Virus record (IMG/VR): IMGVR_UViG_3300027734_000325
Coordinates: 1 to 23,287 of that record
Length of the DNA stretch: 23,287 bases
Reading direction: 5' to 3' (one strand)
Source: a virus
The notes under the pieces are model-generated. The model made no database searches and was not told the origin of the DNA. It saw only the letters and a list, made by a program, of their open reading frames with translations. This document shows, piece by piece, positions 3,974-23,287 of the stretch. Made by a program: the position numbers and the translations under genes. Position 1 is the first letter of the stretch; every line of letters starts with the position of its first letter.

Positions 3974-4299
3974 TGGTGTGCCTTGTCTTGCATTCTGTTT
4001 GTTGCCTCTCGTGTTCGCCAAATCTCTATGTCAAGCCTTGCCGCCTCAATCTCCCATTTGAGGGTCTCTTCTTTTTCAATTGCCGCAGCCAATCCCCTTA
4101 ACAGTTTGGCATAAATAGGGTCGGCGTAGGCTTCACGTTCTTGTGCATTTGCCGCCTCAAAGCCCATTTCTAAAGCATCTTTCATTAACAAGGCTTTTTG
4201 GCTTTTGCGAAATTCCTCAAGGTAAACCCTTTGGGCTTTAGCCTCACCGTAAGCTGGCGCTTTGTCTCGGATGGCTTGCGCCGCTTCTTCGGGTTTCAT
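3970..4299 (-). CDS. Helical phage protein of unknown function
   Basis: A 109-aa protein, almost entirely helical and rich in Ala, Glu, Lys and Arg, with no Cys or TM segment. Phrases such as AYGEAKAQRVYLEEFRK and AAAIEKEETLKWEIEAA suggest a coiled-coil. It resembles small hypothetical proteins I recall in phage replication regions, without a known activity. The start is ATG 4299, with AGGA upstream and an ATGA overlap with the PAPS-reductase-like gene. Its end forms another ATGA overlap with the zinc-ribbon gene, so the three are translationally coupled. Confidence 0.7.
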   Translation of the reverse strand: MKPEEAAQAIRDKAPAYGEAKAQRVYLEEFRKSQKALLMKDALEMGFEAANAQEREAYADPIYAKLLRGLAAAIEKEETLKWEIEAARLDIEIWRTREATNRMQDKAHQ

Positions 4300-5021
4300 T
4301 TGTAATCCTGCTCTGCCATTTGGCAAAAAATAGAACATTCAATGTTTTGCTCAGATGGATAATGCCCATCAGTTGGTTTTAGCTCATCTAAATATCGGTC
4401 TTTAAAAACTGTTTGGCTTTTAGAACGTTCTAACTTTGCCATTCGGTCAAAATGTTCAGGAAAATCAACCTTAATTTTATTCCAATAGCCCATTCCACCT
4501 TTGACACAACCAATGCAATTGTTGTTGTGATAACCAAGGCGATACATTGCTGGCAATTCAATATTGGCGTTTTCTAGCATTGCCAAACAATCTTCTTTAG
4601 AAAGCCCTTTGTCAATCAATGGTATCCAAATGTCAACATCATTGTTGGCATCAATAAACCTATCTAATCGGGCTTGTTCTTCAGCTGTATAACCAAACAC
4701 TTGCCTGTCATTAGCCAATTCAAATCTTTGACGCACTTGCTTTTTTAAGGCCCTCGTGCATGGTGCGCCCTTGGGGGTGCGAATGTAATTTTTCTCAAAC
4801 ACTCGATAAATTGACCCCTCATAAAATTCATTACGCAAAATTTGTATTTCTTGGCCAAACCAAGTTTCACAATCTTTAAGAAATCTCTTGTTGTCGGGAT
4901 GTTCTTCTGCAACTTCGGTGTAAGCAATGATTAAGGGCAATTTGCCATCATTTTCAGCAATCGCTAGTTTTGTAGCCACCGCACTTGCTGCACCGCAACT
5001 AAACCAGCAAACTATTCTCAT
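4296..5021 (-). CDS. PAPS-reductase-superfamily (PP-loop) protein
   Basis: A 241-aa protein of the adenine-nucleotide alpha-hydrolase fold. The PP-loop is SCGAAS at residues 8-13 rather than SGGxDS. Then come TPKGAPCTRALKK (C88), NNNCIGCVKGG (C169, C172) and ECSIFC (C229, C233). Five cysteines in these places could hold an Fe-S cluster, as in sulfur-handling members such as DndC-like proteins. The ECGLH signature of true CysH is not seen. It probably activates a substrate with ATP, perhaps to modify a base or transfer sulfur. The neighbours are nucleic-acid enzymes, not sulfate-assimilation genes. Start is ATG 5021 with an ATGA overlap. Confidence 0.8.
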   Translation of the reverse strand: MRIVCWFSCGAASAVATKLAIAENDGKLPLIIAYTEVAEEHPDNKRFLKDCETWFGQEIQILRNEFYEGSIYRVFEKNYIRTPKGAPCTRALKKQVRQRFELANDRQVFGYTAEEQARLDRFIDANNDVDIWIPLIDKGLSKEDCLAMLENANIELPAMYRLGYHNNNCIGCVKGGMGYWNKIKVDFPEHFDRMAKLERSKSQTVFKDRYLDELKPTDGHYPSEQNIECSIFCQMAEQDYK

Positions 5022-9948: not shown

Positions 9949-10142
9949 TTGCCACGGTTTTAGCCCTGTTGATTGGCGCAATTATTGGGGTTGGGACGCT
10001 TGTTCTGTTTGCTATGTTTTTGGCACACGTTCAAAGTGTGGACAATCCACAAGATTGGAGAAATTCCCTCCCCAACGATTCTTTGGATGAAGAGTCTCCC
10101 AATAAGCGCCAAGAGGAGCAAGGATTTCCTTACTCCAAATAA
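9945..10142 (+). CDS. Small membrane protein overlapping the endolysin gene tail-to-tail
   Basis: A 65-aa frame from GTG 9945, which overlaps the upstream TGA and has GAGG six bases before it. Residues 3-27 form a clear TM helix (TVLALLIGAIIGVGTLVLFA and on), followed by a polar, acidic tail. The last 131 bp overlap the convergent endolysin gene, which is unusual, so the C-terminal half may simply be antisense sequence. The N-terminus looks genuine because of the SD and coupling. It could also be a remnant of a longer gene cut by the inversion boundary. Confidence 0.5.
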   Translation: MIATVLALLIGAIIGVGTLVLFAMFLAHVQSVDNPQDWRNSLPNDSLDEESPNKRQEEQGFPYSK

Positions 10143-10356
10143 TTTTGCCATCCTTAAAAAAGTTAAGGTCAATGGCGCAGCGCTTGAGGTGAATGCTGTT
10201 CATGGTTTTAGATCGACCTGTTTTAAAATAAATAGCCTGTTGCTCGGGCGTTCTAGCCAACTCACCGCCGGTAACTACAAAACCTTGATCTGTAGCGTAT
10301 TGAATTAGTTTGCAGGCATCTAATAGAAAAGCCGCTTGTTCTGTGCTTAAGCTCAT
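10012..10356 (-). CDS. Endolysin: M15-family L-alanyl/D-alanyl peptidase
   Basis: A 114-aa peptidoglycan peptidase of the M15 (VanY/endolysin) family. Zinc ligands: H56 and D63 in SIHLKRCAIDLNFF, and H107 in DCPHFER. GELARTPEQQ at about 31-40 and NRWGGNF at about 93-99 are further family signs. It should cut peptide cross-links of the cell wall at lysis. It has no signal or SAR segment, so it needs the holin encoded just upstream (ATGA overlap) for release. It is a single domain without a wall-binding module, typical of phages of Gram-negative hosts. Confidence 0.92.
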   Translation of the reverse strand: MSLSTEQAAFLLDACKLIQYATDQGFVVTGGELARTPEQQAIYFKTGRSKTMNSIHLKRCAIDLNFFKDGKIIWSKEILAPLGAYWETLHPKNRWGGNFSNLVDCPHFERVPKT

Positions 10357-10865
10357 TTTTTACCTCGCATATCAGCAAGTTTTTCAATTGTGCGCCCACC
10401 AAAATAAGCGCCCATGATCAGCATTCCCCATTGCCCAAGAAGCTGCACATAGCTTTCGTTTGCGTTGTAACCATAGGCGCTCATCATGGCAAACAGGAAA
10501 TAGCCTAAGAAGATGGCTATAAGGCTCATGGGGCGTATGTTTTTAGAAAGCCAAGAGTCTGACCCCATATCAGACTTCCAGCGGTCTGTGACGTTGTTAT
10601 CCTCATTCTTAACGGCATCGGCAAACAATTGCAATTCAGCCAGTTCCATCTTGGCTTTTTCAATACCCAATTCCAATAGGCGTTCTTCATGCTCAAACTG
10701 AAGCTGGCGCAACTTGGATACATCTTCAGGGGTTGGGTTATCAGGAATCTTTACGCCAAGGGTGTTTTCAACTACTTCCTTGCCTTTGGCTTGGATGGCG
10801 CTAGACAGTAGTGTTAACCCGTTTTGGGCAAGACTACCAAGTAGGGATGCAACTATTGGAATCAT
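10353..10865 (-). CDS. Holin of the three-TM (GTA-release) type
   Basis: A 170-aa protein with a hydrophobic N-terminus (residues 3-23), a long charged helical middle (about 48-100), and two C-terminal TM helices (about 112-132 and 139-157) ending in GGRTIEKLADMRGKK. This layout matches the 3TM holin family associated with gene-transfer-agent release. It should open the inner membrane for the endolysin, with which it is coupled by an ATGA overlap. The charged middle is long for a holin, but I recall such forms in phages with M15 endolysins. Confidence 0.82.
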   Translation of the reverse strand: MIPIVASLLGSLAQNGLTLLSSAIQAKGKEVVENTLGVKIPDNPTPEDVSKLRQLQFEHEERLLELGIEKAKMELAELQLFADAVKNEDNNVTDRWKSDMGSDSWLSKNIRPMSLIAIFLGYFLFAMMSAYGYNANESYVQLLGQWGMLIMGAYFGGRTIEKLADMRGKK

Positions 10866-11209
10866 TTATCTTCCTTTTTGAATGTGGTTTTCATTCCTGC
10901 TCTATCTTCCAAAATGGCAATGTGCAGGCGGTTGACTTGAATGTCGTCCCTATTCTTTTGGATTTCTTTCTCCAAGTCCTGCCGCAATTTCTCCCTTGCC
11001 AATTCTGCGCCTGTATTGCTGGCTTGTTTGTTGTCTGAAGTCACAACCAAGCTAATTTTGCTGTTTAGGATGGTCACCTCATGGGACAAGTTAGACAGCG
11101 CCGACATAAGGTAAACAACGCAAGAAAACAATAAAGGCAACAAAGCAAACGTGATTTTTTCAACCAAAGCACTTTTGGTTTCCATTGCTTGTATTTTTTC
11201 CTCACTCAT
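10862..11209 (-). CDS. Membrane-anchored coiled-coil protein of the lysis block
   Basis: A 115-aa protein with one TM helix (about residues 19-37, FALLPLLFSCVVYLMSAL), then a long coiled-coil-like segment with SHEVTILNSKI and a Lys/Glu-rich part to the end. A single N-terminal TM helix followed by a periplasmic coiled-coil is the shape of an inner-membrane spanin or a holin accessory protein. No matching outer-membrane lipoprotein is found next to it. It overlaps the holin gene by ATGA, which supports a lysis role. Confidence 0.65.
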   Translation of the reverse strand: MSEEKIQAMETKSALVEKITFALLPLLFSCVVYLMSALSNLSHEVTILNSKISLVVTSDNKQASNTGAELAREKLRQDLEKEIQKNRDDIQVNRLHIAILEDRAGMKTTFKKEDK

Positions 11210-11495
11210 TTTCTTTTTCCTTTTTAACTTGGTTAATCATGCGCTGCACTTGTTCTTGCTGGCGCTTAGTTTCTTTTTTGGCTTCAAGAATGTCAAGATA
11301 CATTGCGCCAATTATTGGCAGTAACAATGCAAACACTATGACCATACTAAGAAAAGCAATCAAGAATCCCATCTCGTTATTGTCATTTGTCGGATTGCTT
11401 GGAACAATAGGTGGAGGTATATAGTAACTATCATTACCGCCCCGATTATTAGCGCTTTGTCTTGCAGATTGTTTAGCATTTGCTTTCGTTGCCAT
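11202..11495 (-). CDS. Single-TM protein whose start overlaps the upstream gene
   Basis: A 97-aa frame. Residues 1-40 are polar and Asn/Pro-rich (SYYIPPPIVPSN); a TM helix follows at about 43-65 and then a basic/acidic helix. ATG 11495 has AGGG 7 bases upstream. The first 136 bp overlap the upstream gene in another frame. An alternative start at ATG 11372 gives a 56-aa protein (MGFLIAFLS on) that avoids most of the overlap but has a weak SD. Same-strand nested overlap is reminiscent of Rz/Rz1 spanin pairs, but no lipobox is present. Confidence 0.55.
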   Translation of the reverse strand: MATKANAKQSARQSANNRGGNDSYYIPPPIVPSNPTNDNNEMGFLIAFLSMVIVFALLLPIIGAMYLDILEAKKETKRQQEQVQRMINQVKKEKENE

Positions 11496-11899
11496 AATGC
11501 AACCCTATCCTTTGCTTCTTGCGCTAATCTTTCCTTTTCTTGTTCAGCTTGCAATCTTTCAAACTCTTCTTGAAACCTTGTCCAAACCGCACCCAATGCA
11601 GGGTCAACGCCGTAGATCAATAATTCCCTCAACTCAACGGCTTGGCGTTCCAACTCCATTTCTTGAAAGATGTTGTCAAGCGCTTGCGCTTTTAGTGACT
11701 TACCCTTTGGCGGGTTTTTCTTTTGTTCGGCTGAAACGGCTTTGACTTGTTCGTGGGCATCAAAGAATTTACCGATGTAACCCGATATTTCCATTGTGAT
11801 GCTGGTGACATCCTTGGAAGCCGCTTTGCAGTCCTTATAAAACGATACGGCCTGCTTGATAGCGGCAATGGCGGCAAGGGCTGCGGTGAACGGATCAAT
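11360..11899 (-). CDS. Helical protein with C-terminal TM helix; probable ATT start
   Basis: A 179-aa protein if read from ATT 11899, or 144 aa from ATG 11794. The ATG has no SD. The extra 35 residues (IDPFTAALAAIAAIKQAVSF and on) look like a genuine N-terminus of this kind of phage protein, and GGGG stands 6 bases before the ATT, directly after the stop of the upstream gene. Then come KKNPPKGKSLKAQALDN, a helical LLIYGVDPALGAVW segment, a Glu-rich coiled-coil, and a TM helix near 147-169. It may be a tail-anchored lysis or spanin-like protein. Start codon inferred. Confidence 0.6.
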   Translation of the reverse strand: MDPFTAALAAIAAIKQAVSFYKDCKAASKDVTSITMEISGYIGKFFDAHEQVKAVSAEQKKNPPKGKSLKAQALDNIFQEMELERQAVELRELLIYGVDPALGAVWTRFQEEFERLQAEQEKERLAQEAKDRVALWQRKQMLNNLQDKALIIGAVMIVTIYLHLLFQAIRQMTITRWDS

Positions 11900-12094
11900 T
11901 TACAGCCCCAATAGCTTTTTAACAAAATCTGCCGCCACGCCAGGCCCAAACAACACCACCGCCATCACCGCATACAAAAGGTATTCAATGCGGGTCATGC
12001 GTTTGTCGCCAGCAATAAAAGACTTTTCAATGGCCTCGTACCTTTGGGCGCAAATAGCTTCATGCACAGCAAAATCTTTTTCTAAATCGCTCAC
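11900..12094 (-). CDS. Small tail-anchored membrane protein
   Basis: A 64-aa protein starting at GTG 12094, which forms a GTGA overlap with the upstream stop and has GGAG seven bases ahead. A helix with DLEKDFAVHEAICAQRYEAI is followed by a TM helix (about residues 37-55, YLLYAVMAVVLFGPGV) and KKLLGL. Small proteins of this shape are common in phage lysis regions; whether it is a holin partner, antiholin or something else cannot be said. Confidence 0.65.
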   Translation of the reverse strand: MSDLEKDFAVHEAICAQRYEAIEKSFIAGDKRMTRIEYLLYAVMAVVLFGPGVAADFVKKLLGL

Positions 12095-16943: not shown

Positions 16944-18314
16944 TCAGAAACCTACTAATTTTCTGATTTCAGGAATGTTTGCTACACCCGCAGATCCTAA
17001 ACTGAATAATCCTGCAGTGTTAGCATTTTGCCCAGCCACTTGCTGGTTATACAAATTTTGGTTATATGCACCTTGTTGAGCCGCCGCATTAGCAATAGGC
17101 GCTGCCGCAATGTTTTGACCTTGATAAGCGCCAAATTGAGGATTTTGAATTTGTGAACCCGACATCAATGCACTAATTTCATTCAAAGGCAATTGACGCT
17201 GTTGGAGAGCCTGCGCCAGCGCCTGCTGTTGGGCGGTATTGCCAAACTGAGCCGCTTGCAAGCCTTGGTTGTATCTTTGTGCCTCTGTAGCATTTTGTGC
17301 TTGAGCCGAGGTCATGCCTTGACCATAATTTTGACTAATTGCCTGATTTTGCAATTGTTGGGCAGTTGTTCCTTGACCAAAATTTTGGGCAATAGCTTGA
17401 TTTTGCATTTGTTGGGCAGACATTCCTTGACCATAGTTTTGAGCAATGGCTTGATTTCTAGCTTGTTGATTTTGCAAACCCGCACCAAACTGCGACAACT
17501 GAGCCGCGTTGCCAAACTGACCGCCTTGTAACGCCTGATTAAAGCCTTGTTGATTTGCGCCAATATCTAAGTTTAAACCTTGTAAAGCTGCCTGACTTCT
17601 AAGGTCGTTTTCTTGTTCCCCAAGCAATCGGGCAGCGTTGTTGTATGCCTCTGTGCCTGGTCGCAAACCTTGATTGATTAATTGAGTCTCTGTGCTTGTA
17701 CGTTGCCTAGCCAATGACGGCTCTAAACGTCGCATGATTGCTTCTTGTGCCGTTGTGCCTGCGTTTACAGGCATTTTGGCAATATTGCTTAAATCTAATT
17801 TTGAATTTATATTAGGAGCATTAACACCGCCTTGAGCTAATCCATAAGCATTTGGATTTATTCCTGCCGCTGAACCATAAGCGCCTGCATTAACACCGCC
17901 AGCTAAACCATATTGCCCTGCGCTAGGTGCATTTTGTAATGCGCCACCTTGATTGAATTGGGTTTGTACTTGTGGGCCACCAAACGAAAAAGGTGATGAC
18001 AACGTACCAAAAGCATTTGTGTAGGCTGTACCGCCCAATCGAGCCAAATTACCTTGTAGAGCCTGCTGTGCCTCTAAAGTTCTTTGAGCCTCAGGCGTAA
18101 GGGTTTGCCTAATAGTTGGCACATCCCCCTCATAACTAACTAATTGAGTCCCATAAGGACTGTAAACATTTGGGTTGGATAATTTTGCAGATGCCCTTGC
18201 GGTTTCTACGTTAGCCGCACCTTGAGCTACTGCCGCACCCGCATAATCGGGCGCTGCTGGTGGAGCCGGTGGTGCACCAAAAACCGCTTCTTTTAATTCA
18301 GTTAAAAAACCCAT
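16944..18314 (-). CDS. Q/N-rich repeat structural protein
   Basis: A 456-aa protein low in charge and rich in Gln, Asn, Ala and Gly. The N-terminus has MGFLTELKEAVFGAPPAPP; the middle has NPNVYSPYGTQLVSYEG and IMRRLEPSLARQRTSTE; residues about 279-350 hold 18-residue repeats of the type NQAIAQNYGQGMSAQQMQ. Such proteins occur in podovirus-like virion operons next to the connector genes. They may form elongated bundles inside the capsid or tail. Function not known; a DNA-ejection role is inference. Confidence 0.65.
   Translation of the reverse strand: MGFLTELKEAVFGAPPAPPAAPDYAGAAVAQGAANVETARASAKLSNPNVYSPYGTQLVSYEGDVPTIRQTLTPEAQRTLEAQQALQGNLARLGGTAYTNAFGTLSSPFSFGGPQVQTQFNQGGALQNAPSAGQYGLAGGVNAGAYGSAAGINPNAYGLAQGGVNAPNINSKLDLSNIAKMPVNAGTTAQEAIMRRLEPSLARQRTSTETQLINQGLRPGTEAYNNAARLLGEQENDLRSQAALQGLNLDIGANQQGFNQALQGGQFGNAAQLSQFGAGLQNQQARNQAIAQNYGQGMSAQQMQNQAIAQNFGQGTTAQQLQNQAISQNYGQGMTSAQAQNATEAQRYNQGLQAAQFGNTAQQQALAQALQQRQLPLNEISALMSGSQIQNPQFGAYQGQNIAAAPIANAAAQQGAYNQNLYNQQVAGQNANTAGLFSLGSAGVANIPEIRKLVGF
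17265..17480. repeat. 54-bp tandem repeat inside the Q/N-rich gene
   Basis: Three clear units starting TTGACC at 17319, 17373 and 17427, plus a decayed unit from 17265, all in a 54-bp period. It encodes 18-residue blocks on the minus strand. Units differ at many third positions, so the repeat is old rather than a recent expansion. Confidence 0.8.
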
Positions 18315-21243: not shown

Positions 21244-21822
21244 TCATTCCTCTACGGTTTCTTTTTTAGGTCTTCCGGCTTTTTTGTTGATCATCGCACG
21301 AAGCTCAGCCAATTCAGCCTCTTGAGCTTCCATTTTTTTATCCATCTCTGCGCGAATCTTGTCCATCATCTGCGAATCTTGAGCCGCCATGATGAAAGCC
21401 CGAGCCTTTGATCTCAAATCGTTAAAGCCCATAATCTTGTCGCCAGCCACATCAGGCAAGTTAGCAAACTGGTCAATGGTGAAAATGTTAAGCGCTTTGA
21501 ACTCTGCTTTTTGTGTTTCTGAAATTGCCATCCATGCGTCTATGGGTGTGCCAGCTACTTTTTGTTCTTTCTTTTGCTCGTATCTTGCCCACTCAATGGG
21601 GTAATCTTCCATGTCTTGCTCGCGCATGGGGCGGTCAACAACCAAGGTCGAATCGCCTGGCACTAACTTCTTGATAAAGATGCGTTCTTCAAAGATTGGG
21701 CGCTTTTCTGCGTCTGATTTAAAGTTATTACGCACCTGTACAGCATGAAAAAACACCGCCATCTTGCCACGGTTGTCTTCCATGAAGCTCTCGTTTGTCC
21801 AGCCTGCCACTTCGTTTTTCAT
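21244..21822 (-). CDS. Virion-operon protein of unknown function
   Basis: A 192-aa protein. The N-terminal half is beta-rich (MAVFFHAVQVRNNFKS, FIKKLVPGDSTLVVDRP); the middle holds IEWARYEQKKE and a GTPIDAWMAIS phrase, then a helical region with LNIFTIDQFANLPD that resembles a small helix-hairpin-helix, and a C-terminal coiled-coil ending AGRPKKETVEE. I recall this order from conserved proteins in phage head/tail operons, of unknown role. It could be a scaffold or assembly factor. Confidence 0.62.
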   Translation of the reverse strand: MKNEVAGWTNESFMEDNRGKMAVFFHAVQVRNNFKSDAEKRPIFEERIFIKKLVPGDSTLVVDRPMREQDMEDYPIEWARYEQKKEQKVAGTPIDAWMAISETQKAEFKALNIFTIDQFANLPDVAGDKIMGFNDLRSKARAFIMAAQDSQMMDKIRAEMDKKMEAQEAELAELRAMINKKAGRPKKETVEE

Positions 21823-22556
21823 GTTAATTCCTTGAGTTTGAAAGCAGTTTCCTGCATAAGACCATCGCCGTAAAACACCACTTCAGCATCCTGCGTTTCA
21901 ATGAATTTTTCCATTTCAATTGCCGCTTGGAGCATCTGCTGTGTTGTTTGGAAAGTTCTCAAACCAACTCTGACCATGATTTTAATCTGATCTTTGCCAG
22001 TATGAGCACCCGCGTGGCGGTTATTTGTATATGAACAATCCATGCCATGAATGTCAAACCGGCGAAACCCTAAAGCTGCCGAAACATTCATTGCCCTCAT
22101 GCCTACACTAGAACCGCCACCAATTAGGCTTTCCATGCCCTCGGGGTGGTGCTGGGCTACCCATGCCACCGTCTCGAAATCATCTCCATTTACCAAATGC
22201 CATACCTTAACATTTTTCCCTTTGAGAGTCTCCCAAAAAGTTGGGTGGCAAACCGAGGCCATCAGATACTTAGTGGCTTTCTGTGGCTTTCTTAACATTT
22301 CAGCTTTGTGCGGCCTTGGGTCGCAGTCAACATGAAAGTCAGGAATAACGCCCCTTTCCACCAAGTAATCATGTGCTCCTGAAACCGTCATTATTGGGCG
22401 TTTGAGCTGTTTCCAAGTGTCTGCAAGGCTTGGCCCATAACAAGCAATGGTCATGCGCCGGTCGTTGAATTTGCCCTTTTTCTTTAGCAGGGGCAAGTGA
22501 ATTGACTTTGCCATCTGCTCATGGCGCTCGGCGTTAGTTAAGACCCCTTTGAGCAT
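21819..22556 (-). CDS. MptE-like / DUF115-type protein
   Basis: A 245-aa protein with the signature of the 6-hydroxymethylpterin pyrophosphokinase MptE-like (DUF115) family: ACYGPSLADTWKQL, VSGAHDYLVERGVIPDFHVD, CDPRPHKAEM, IGGGSSVGMRAMNVSAALG and HGMDCSYTN. In bacteria the family includes motility-associated glycosylation proteins that act on flagellin. In phages it commonly travels with glycosyltransferases and methyltransferases, as here. It may help glycosylate virion or host proteins, but the substrate is unknown. SD GAGGG precedes ATG 22556. Confidence 0.8.
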   Translation of the reverse strand: MLKGVLTNAERHEQMAKSIHLPLLKKKGKFNDRRMTIACYGPSLADTWKQLKRPIMTVSGAHDYLVERGVIPDFHVDCDPRPHKAEMLRKPQKATKYLMASVCHPTFWETLKGKNVKVWHLVNGDDFETVAWVAQHHPEGMESLIGGGSSVGMRAMNVSAALGFRRFDIHGMDCSYTNNRHAGAHTGKDQIKIMVRVGLRTFQTTQQMLQAAIEMEKFIETQDAEVVFYGDGLMQETAFKLKELT

Positions 22557-23140
22557 TCCACCCTCATGTCTCTAAATGGGAAATGGTATCTAGGCTCGCA
22601 AAAGGTAATGTTCTGCATTCCTACTGATTGCAACATATCATGCAATGGGCGCTGAAACCAACCCCATCGATGGCACATAGCCTCGGCTTTATACTTAGGA
22701 TCACCCCACAAGGCAAAAGTCGTCATAAATGGCTGCAATGGCTCTTTGCTGACCACGCAATTGTGGACGTAGGCAAACACCTTATCCATGCAGGGAAGCT
22801 CTAAGATCATCTTGCCGCTTGGCTTTAACACCCGCTTCCACTCGGTCAACAAGTCGTAAGCTTCCCATTCATAAAAGTGCTCTAAAACGTGAATTGCCGC
22901 TACCGCATCGGCTGAGTCGCTTGCAATCTCTAGTTTTCTAAGGTCGCATTTGATGTCGGAAATATCAGAATGCAGGTCTACGTTTATCCAACCGTCCCAT
23001 TTCTTTGATCCGCATCCAAGGTTGTAGGCCGTCTCGTAGCGCTCTTCCACTTGTCGATCAGTATTTGAGGCGAGAATTCTGCCGTCACGAATTTCTGCGC
23101 CTTGGATATGAGTTCGTTCATGTTCTGCTGTTTTGTCCAT
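22538..23140 (-). CDS. SAM-dependent class I methyltransferase
   Basis: A 200-aa protein from ATG 23140, which has GAGGG six bases upstream. Motif I is YNLGCGSKKWDGWINVDL, about residues 39-56; further motifs are CDLRKLEIASDSADAVAAIH, HVLEHFYEW and LKPSGKMILELP. It should transfer methyl from SAM to an unknown acceptor, perhaps a sugar. The N-terminal about 30 residues overlap the end of the glycosyltransferase in another frame and do not look conserved; a GTG at 23050 would start closer to the domain but lacks an SD. Its end overlaps the MptE-like gene by 19 bp. Confidence 0.85.
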   Translation of the reverse strand: MDKTAEHERTHIQGAEIRDGRILASNTDRQVEERYETAYNLGCGSKKWDGWINVDLHSDISDIKCDLRKLEIASDSADAVAAIHVLEHFYEWEAYDLLTEWKRVLKPSGKMILELPCMDKVFAYVHNCVVSKEPLQPFMTTFALWGDPKYKAEAMCHRWGWFQRPLHDMLQSVGMQNITFCEPRYHFPFRDMRVECSKGS

Positions 23141-23287
23141 TCGATGCCCTCTTTGATGTTGCCGATATAAATGGGAAAATCTTTTAAGGCTGGGTGCGGC
23201 TCTGCAACCACAAAACAACCCTGTCTGATCGCCTCAATTGCCCTGTTTGCGCTTTTGTAAGAAGCAGTGGTAGGGATCACCACTATA
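22984..23287 (-). CDS. Glycosyltransferase, C-terminal part (start beyond window)
   Basis: The frame is open to the right edge and ends with TAA at 22984. About 100 residues are visible: PTTASYKSANRAIEAIRQGC then FVVAEPHPALKDFPIYIG, the donor-binding C-terminal Rossmann pattern of GT-B glycosyltransferases (GT1/GT4 type), followed by LIDKWKSATRR. The N-terminal acceptor-binding half is outside. It overlaps the methyltransferase gene by 157 bp if that gene starts at 23140. It forms a carbohydrate-modifying trio with the methyltransferase and the MptE-like gene. Confidence 0.72.
   Translation of the reverse strand, partial: IVVIPTTASYKSANRAIEAIRQGCFVVAEPHPALKDFPIYIGNIKEGIEWTKQQNMNELISKAQKFVTAEFSPQILIDKWKSATRRPTTLDADQRNGTVG

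Follow-up and report, generated by a model that had tools for sequence, protein, structure and literature searches.

The start of a 179-codon frame

Where does translation begin when a reading frame extends 35 codons beyond the ATG chosen by a standard gene caller and opens with ATT? The question was raised by a gene on the minus strand of a freshwater phage, the virus record IMGVR_UViG_3300027734_000325, all 23,287 bases of which were analyzed (the window). The frame (11360..11899, minus strand) is open for 179 codons, with its stop at 11360. The proposed start codon, ATT (AUU) at 11897..11899 (minus strand), abuts an in-frame TAA (11902-11900). The minus strand reads TTGGGGCTGTAA|ATTGATCCG at this site, with AAGCTATTGGGGCTGTAA followed by ATT GAT CCG TTC. 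A Shine-Dalgarno (SD)-like GGGG (11906..11909, minus strand) is separated from ATT by the six bases CTGTAA and has a dG of -4.7 to the anti-SD. The ATG at 11792..11794 (minus strand) is codon 36 and is unconserved; it has nothing more than AGGA, far upstream (dG -3.9 from -20 to -3, versus -4.7 for ATT). A sequence-only reading had proposed an AUU start from these features, and each was found as it described: the 35 codons ahead of ATG 11794 contain no ATG, GTG, TTG or CTG, ATT stands directly after TAA with GGGG six bases upstream, and ATG 11794 has no SD at proper spacing.

ATT is conserved at the start position of close homologues

The first IMG/VR scan, with the 179 residues as query, gave 68 relatives, of which 66 had ATT and one (L067) had ATC at the start position; one was truncated. 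The set was widened by more scans, three of which kept the best 80 of 176, 145 and 91 matches, so the survey is a sample. It comprised 252 records (251 loci and the window), all of which matched the family profile. L069, which is the window, was left out, L068 (truncated) and L180 (contig edge) were dropped, and the remaining records gave 134 distinct sequences once those with identical DNA between -20 and +500 were merged. The start codon of these 134 distinct sampled homologues was ATT in 113, GTG in 15 and ATC in 6, with no ATG or TTG; the counts are not independent, because the sequences are related. The 15 GTG-started sequences formed a single clade. They began precisely at the position of the window ATT, which settled the homologue check suggested earlier in favor of the longer protein. 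Because 113 of the 134 distinct homologous DNA sequences carry ATT at the equivalent place, its presence is beyond chance or a sequencing error, the latter having been named as something that could undo the proposal. The conserved AUU suggests that a weak start signal has been kept by evolution in most of the close relatives examined.

The space upstream of ATT was also inspected. In the first 67 intact loci and the window, an in-frame stop lay 0-6 codons before the start, with no ATG, GTG, TTG or CTG between them. In some members of the 134 set this stop lay up to 22 codons before the start. The same four codons were absent between the in-frame stop and ATT/ATC in 118 of the 119 distinct ATT/ATC sequences, the exception being L182, with an upstream in-frame GTG and TTG.

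The downstream gene was used as a control. It is a 97-aa membrane-protein ORF with ATG 11495 (11202..11495, minus strand), which overlaps the ATT gene by 136 bases. Its homologues, present in 131 of the 134 sequences, started with ATG in 123 and GTG in 7, and one had no standard start. The downstream gene mostly uses ATG, indicating that AUU starts are not general in these phages. The single case without a standard start (L184, about 2899) has ATC for ATG, with no standard start within six codons on either side.

The first 35 codons evolve as coding sequence

Diversity was computed on 133 sequences (L067 left out). At codon positions 1/2/3 it was 0.216/0.146/0.576 for codons 2-35 and 0.226/0.151/0.497 for codons 36-140; the 36 bases upstream of the start were flat (0.616/0.610/0.552). 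From this pattern, codons 2-35 are therefore protein-coding, and the 35 residues before codon 36 do make a normal N-terminus, as had been supposed. Six internal Ile columns contained a mixture of ATT, ATC and ATA, whereas the start position was ATT in 113 of 118 ATT/ATC sequences. Substitutions were counted on a tree from which the first codon had been excluded. For the third base of the start codon, 3 changes were counted; the six Ile columns had 11-29, and 13 fourfold sites had 10-35 (mean 20.7), with 21 inferred T-to-G changes altogether. By both comparisons, the non-canonical start codon was conserved beyond drift, and 3 changes against 10-35 indicated that ATT persists through selection rather than because too little time has passed for it to change.

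A structure was modeled from 41 sequences (mean pLDDT 86.5, pTM 0.66). Helices were predicted at residues 3-26, 32-61, 69-98 and 100-177, with a hydrophobic stretch near 148-168. The first helical blocks had model pLDDT values of 89-94 (about 90 for helix 3-26); given these high values, the stretch ahead of codon 36 seems to be part of the predicted fold. The best match in the viral fold library was A0A6J5LM43, an uncharacterised protein of 144 residues with 89% identity. As 144 is 179 minus 35, its annotation was probably cut at codon 36. Other matches to the 179-aa protein were limited to unnamed phage proteins in the viral fold library and to weak or unknown families in Pfam and PHROGs, and no solved structure in the PDB matched the model at E 0.001 or better.

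SD signals accompany ATT and ATC starts

The SD signal was measured as the binding energy to the anti-SD between -20 and -3, and -4 kcal/mol or below was taken as a match. ATT starts had a mean of -5.88 kcal/mol; of the 113, 104 reached -4 or lower and 9 were weaker than that. The six ATC starts averaged -4.63 kcal/mol and all were at or below -4 (6/6). The mean for GTG starts was -0.70 kcal/mol, with 0 of 15 at or below -4; in-gene windows had a mean of about -2.9 kcal/mol. An SD at working distance was present for 110 of the 119 ATT/ATC starts. The commonest cores were GGGG, AGGAG and AGGGG, and the commonest spacer was 6 bases. Bases -10, -9 and -7 were conserved amid otherwise variable neighbours.

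Other ways of reading the frame

Translation could begin at ATG 11794, with the preceding 35 codons untranslated. In the window no other standard start is close to the N-terminus, a standard gene caller would pick this ATG, and an annotated relative of 144 aa exists. Conservation contradicted this start, and it was rejected as extremely improbable. If the AUU proposal were wrong, the homologues should start there, and they do not: codon 36 is ATG in just 43 of 134, Lys or Arg in 90 (74 and 16, respectively) and Ser in 1, and the mean dG over the 43 homologues having ATG is -1.35. Furthermore, in 27 of the 119 distinct ATT/ATC sequences no standard start occurs before codon 90, codons 2-35 show coding-type evolution, and no SD is properly spaced from ATG 11794. 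Other sequences, including most of the IEPIT-starting group, have a standard codon at codon 6, 8 or 18. These sites are probably not the start, because they are at least 15 bases further from the SD and because the rest of the family lacks a standard codon there. A different possibility is that ATTG is kept for the TTG of an overlapping +1-frame ORF and that ATT is incidental. In 42 of the 134 sequences, the window among them, the +1 frame stays open for 68 codons, and its mean length is 37 codons versus 11.7 in simulation. However, it is closed within 23 codons in 47 of 134, the six ATC sequences have no TTG, codons 2-35 show no lowering of third-position diversity (0.576 versus 0.497), and such an ORF would leave the main frame without a start. 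The overlapping ORF was rejected and has hardly any probability. Slippage from the UUG in ATTG was also rejected, as UUG is absent from the ATC sequences.

Ribosomes translating the upstream gene might also enter the frame by stop-codon readthrough or frameshifting, with no start needed. In the window, the upstream gene is a small membrane-protein ORF with a GTG start (64-65 aa; 11900..12094, minus strand), whose TAA at 11902-11900 abuts ATT. It shares the ATT frame with one TAA between, and TAA|ATT is common to 45 of the 134 sequences. For the whole set, the upstream gene was defined as the longest ORF ending between -45 and +13. In every one of the 134 sequences its stop fell between -16 and +2 of the start, and its frame relative to the start was 0, 1 or 2. 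The upstream proteins were of at least seven kinds, as judged from C-terminal ends compared by eye (including ...KKLLGL, ...SHWVGKN, ...LTLVLKL, ...VTPGEG, ...WFYFDKKG, ...LDSKQDK and ...RIVNIVK). With upstream genes of several kinds and frames, no one readthrough or frameshift mechanism fits. Readthrough would also leave the SD matches at near-fixed spacing unexplained, and one clade has GTG in place of ATT. A fusion of this kind was rejected and is most unlikely. The closeness of the upstream stop suggests translational coupling of the AUU start to the upstream gene.

Strong support for AUU as the start codon comes from the homologues, from the SD matches, and from the coding pattern and rate of evolution. 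The 179-aa protein very likely begins at AUU, and initiation there is very likely real and under selection.

Codon strength and SD strength in distant subfamilies

The annotated phage records MW202462 and MW202484 contain distant relatives with an annotated ATG inside the frame. In MW202462.1 and MW202484.1 (L255 and L256), the annotated starts are 9 and 7 codons, respectively, inside likely upstream GTG starts. Scans with these relatives gave subfamilies B and C; one scan kept the best 80 of 505 matches. The start was assigned by a rule of our own, as either of the two codons immediately ahead of the DP motif. For subfamily B, a closed frame was obtained in 71 of 81 loci, 2 were dropped, and 60 distinct sequences had ATG (32), GTG (24), ATT (3) or TTG (1) starts. 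For subfamily C, the frame was obtained in 42 of 42 loci, 2 were dropped, and 36 distinct sequences had GTG (31), ATT (3), ATA (1) or ATG (1) starts. The seven AUU/AUA starts of B and C occupied about five separate places in the tree. All seven had an SD, versus 7 of 55 GTG starts.

Among all 230 distinct sequences, SD energies at or below -4 were found for 117 of 126 AUU/AUC/AUA starts versus 11 of 104 canonical starts (Fisher p 1.8e-40, relatedness ignored). Our main new finding is that codon strength is exchanged for SD strength across the superfamily. That the family never uses ATG is true of the 134 close homologues; it was rejected for the superfamily, in which 33 of 96 distinct distant sequences have ATG. 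The frequency of ATG in a distant clade (32/60 in subfamily B) indicates that AUG is not intolerable everywhere.

Two further observations concern the bases next to the start. The GTG starts in L102-L119 (15/15) and L338-L378 (31/31) are preceded by AT, which creates an out-of-frame ATG (ATGTG). This ATG, two bases upstream of GTG, could be a decoy start. In one member of subfamily C only (L338, about 1498-1503), ATG ATT GAT is present, with an in-frame ATG directly before ATT.

A possible mechanism

The initiator tRNA would decode AUU as fMet, giving MDPFTAALAAIAAIK... A ribosome fresh from upstream termination, or a new 30S subunit, would be held by the SD at AUU. Initiation there would be inefficient, because IF3 discriminates against AUU. 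Selection would hold total initiation low, and lineages would do so in one of two ways, by combining a weak codon (AUU, AUC or AUA) with a good SD or by using a better codon (usually GUG) behind hardly any SD. Expression would therefore be low under both arrangements. Output should go up when IF3 is limiting. PMC5472188 describes repression of non-canonical starts by IF3, and PMC2268962 reports that overexpressed IF3 reduces re-initiation, less so when an SD is present.

It may be instead that AUU is real yet merely tolerated as a weak start, through drift or relaxed selection, and has no control role. GTG, and ATG in a distant clade, do occupy the equivalent start position. Drift of this kind is unlikely, as the start codon has hardly varied at its third base (3 changes versus 10-35) and codon and SD co-vary in a compensating direction. 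We consider an AUU start that is held by the SD, inefficient, and giving low, IF3-sensitive expression to be the best explanation overall, with a probability of about 0.93 on the sequence comparisons. Low expression that is perhaps IF3-sensitive is likewise the best mechanism that we can infer. That the AUU gene senses host free IF3 during infection, as an IF3-gated translational switch beside the lysis cassette that would turn on the protein when ribosomes and initiation factors come into a different balance, is rather doubtful.

L117, a relative that also has AGGAG and ATT, comes from a 275-kb contig in a Comamonadaceae MAG. The infC gene (IF3) of this MAG reads TGA ACC ATC GCT ACT..., with an ATC start; the host evidence is thin, consisting of this one MAG. 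A search of 399 genomes of its family gave 2 matches, one of which was the MAG itself.

Gene neighborhood

The assignment of the gene to a lysis region is supported by a holin-like and an endolysin gene downstream. Downstream of the 97-aa ORF are a 115-aa ORF with an N-terminal hydrophobic stretch and a weak spanin-like profile match (10862..11209, minus strand; E 0.095), a 170-aa holin-like protein (10353..10865, minus strand; phrog_3427, E 3.5e-13) and an M15-type endolysin (10012..10356, minus strand; Peptidase_M15_4, E 1.6e-07; phrog_465, E 6e-16). The 179-aa protein itself had no convincing holin, antiholin, spanin or endolysin match in Pfam, PHROGs, the viral fold library or the PDB. The gene and its overlapping neighbor do not form an Rz/Rz1 overlapping spanin pair, as the 97-aa protein contains no cysteine and hence no lipobox cysteine. 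What the start pattern primarily suggests is expression stabilised at a low level; the lysis timing proposed earlier would be one possible purpose.

Elsewhere on the minus strand of the window are a protein with internal repeats (16944-18314), among them 2.7 copies of a 54-base unit (17313-17457) and a unit of 33 bases (17818-17912), a PAPS-reductase-like protein (4296-5021; E 5.8e-4, just under the Pfam cut-off), and an MptE-like protein (E 5.7e-18) adjoining a methyltransferase (E 7e-9) at 21819-23218. No Rfam family was found in the window.

Comparison with known AUU starts

AUU starts are already known (infC, pcnB and cvfC1), and the phage-family AUU is a variant of these. Binns and Masters are said to have reported in 2002 that the AUU start codon limits expression of E. 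coli pcnB. The start codon is the same, whereas pcnB is a cellular gene and AUU here occurs across a phage family, in which it alternates with GUG accompanied by loss of the SD. Phage T4 gene 26 has an internal AUU start and is likewise a case of AUU initiation in a phage; that start is a second, internal one in one phage, whereas AUU here is the main start of a family.

The infC gene of Escherichia coli, encoding IF3, is described in PMC5472188 and PMC9410913 as having an AUU start, of a codon class against which IF3 discriminates. The phage gene shares AUU and this codon class. Unlike infC, which is cellular and autoregulated by its own product, it encodes a phage protein that is not IF3. 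According to PMC13009471, cvfC1 of Staphylococcus aureus has a conserved AUU and an extended SD, with a reporter yield below that of AUG. Both genes combine AUU with a strong SD, kept among relatives; cvfC1 is the first gene of a chromosomal operon, whereas the gene here is in a phage cluster and abuts or overlaps the upstream stop. PMC5472188 also describes an IF3-repressed GTC start of Streptomyces sigR that holds the protein below its partner's level. Both genes have a non-canonical start; the sigR codon is GTC and its product a sigma factor, unlike the AUU gene here.

AUU starts are very rare: the PMC5622118 survey gives one switch to AUU each from 61,358 ancestral AUG and 5,080 ancestral GUG starts. 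It also describes a general tendency for GUG/UUG to be traded against SD. Searches of open-licence PMC papers found no family of phage genes in which an AUU start is conserved. In the phage family described here, AUU is the predominant start, hardly changes and reappears in distant subfamilies.

Gene finders limited to ATG, GTG and TTG would remove the N-terminus of such proteins (35 residues here), a systematic annotation error, and would lose about half the protein or more in 27 of the 119 distinct ATT/ATC sequences. The naturally occurring combinations of start codon and SD in the family form a series suited to testing stabilising selection on initiation rate. If the IF3-gated switch were real, a large phage protein superfamily would set low translation by trading codon against SD, under a control like that of host infC.
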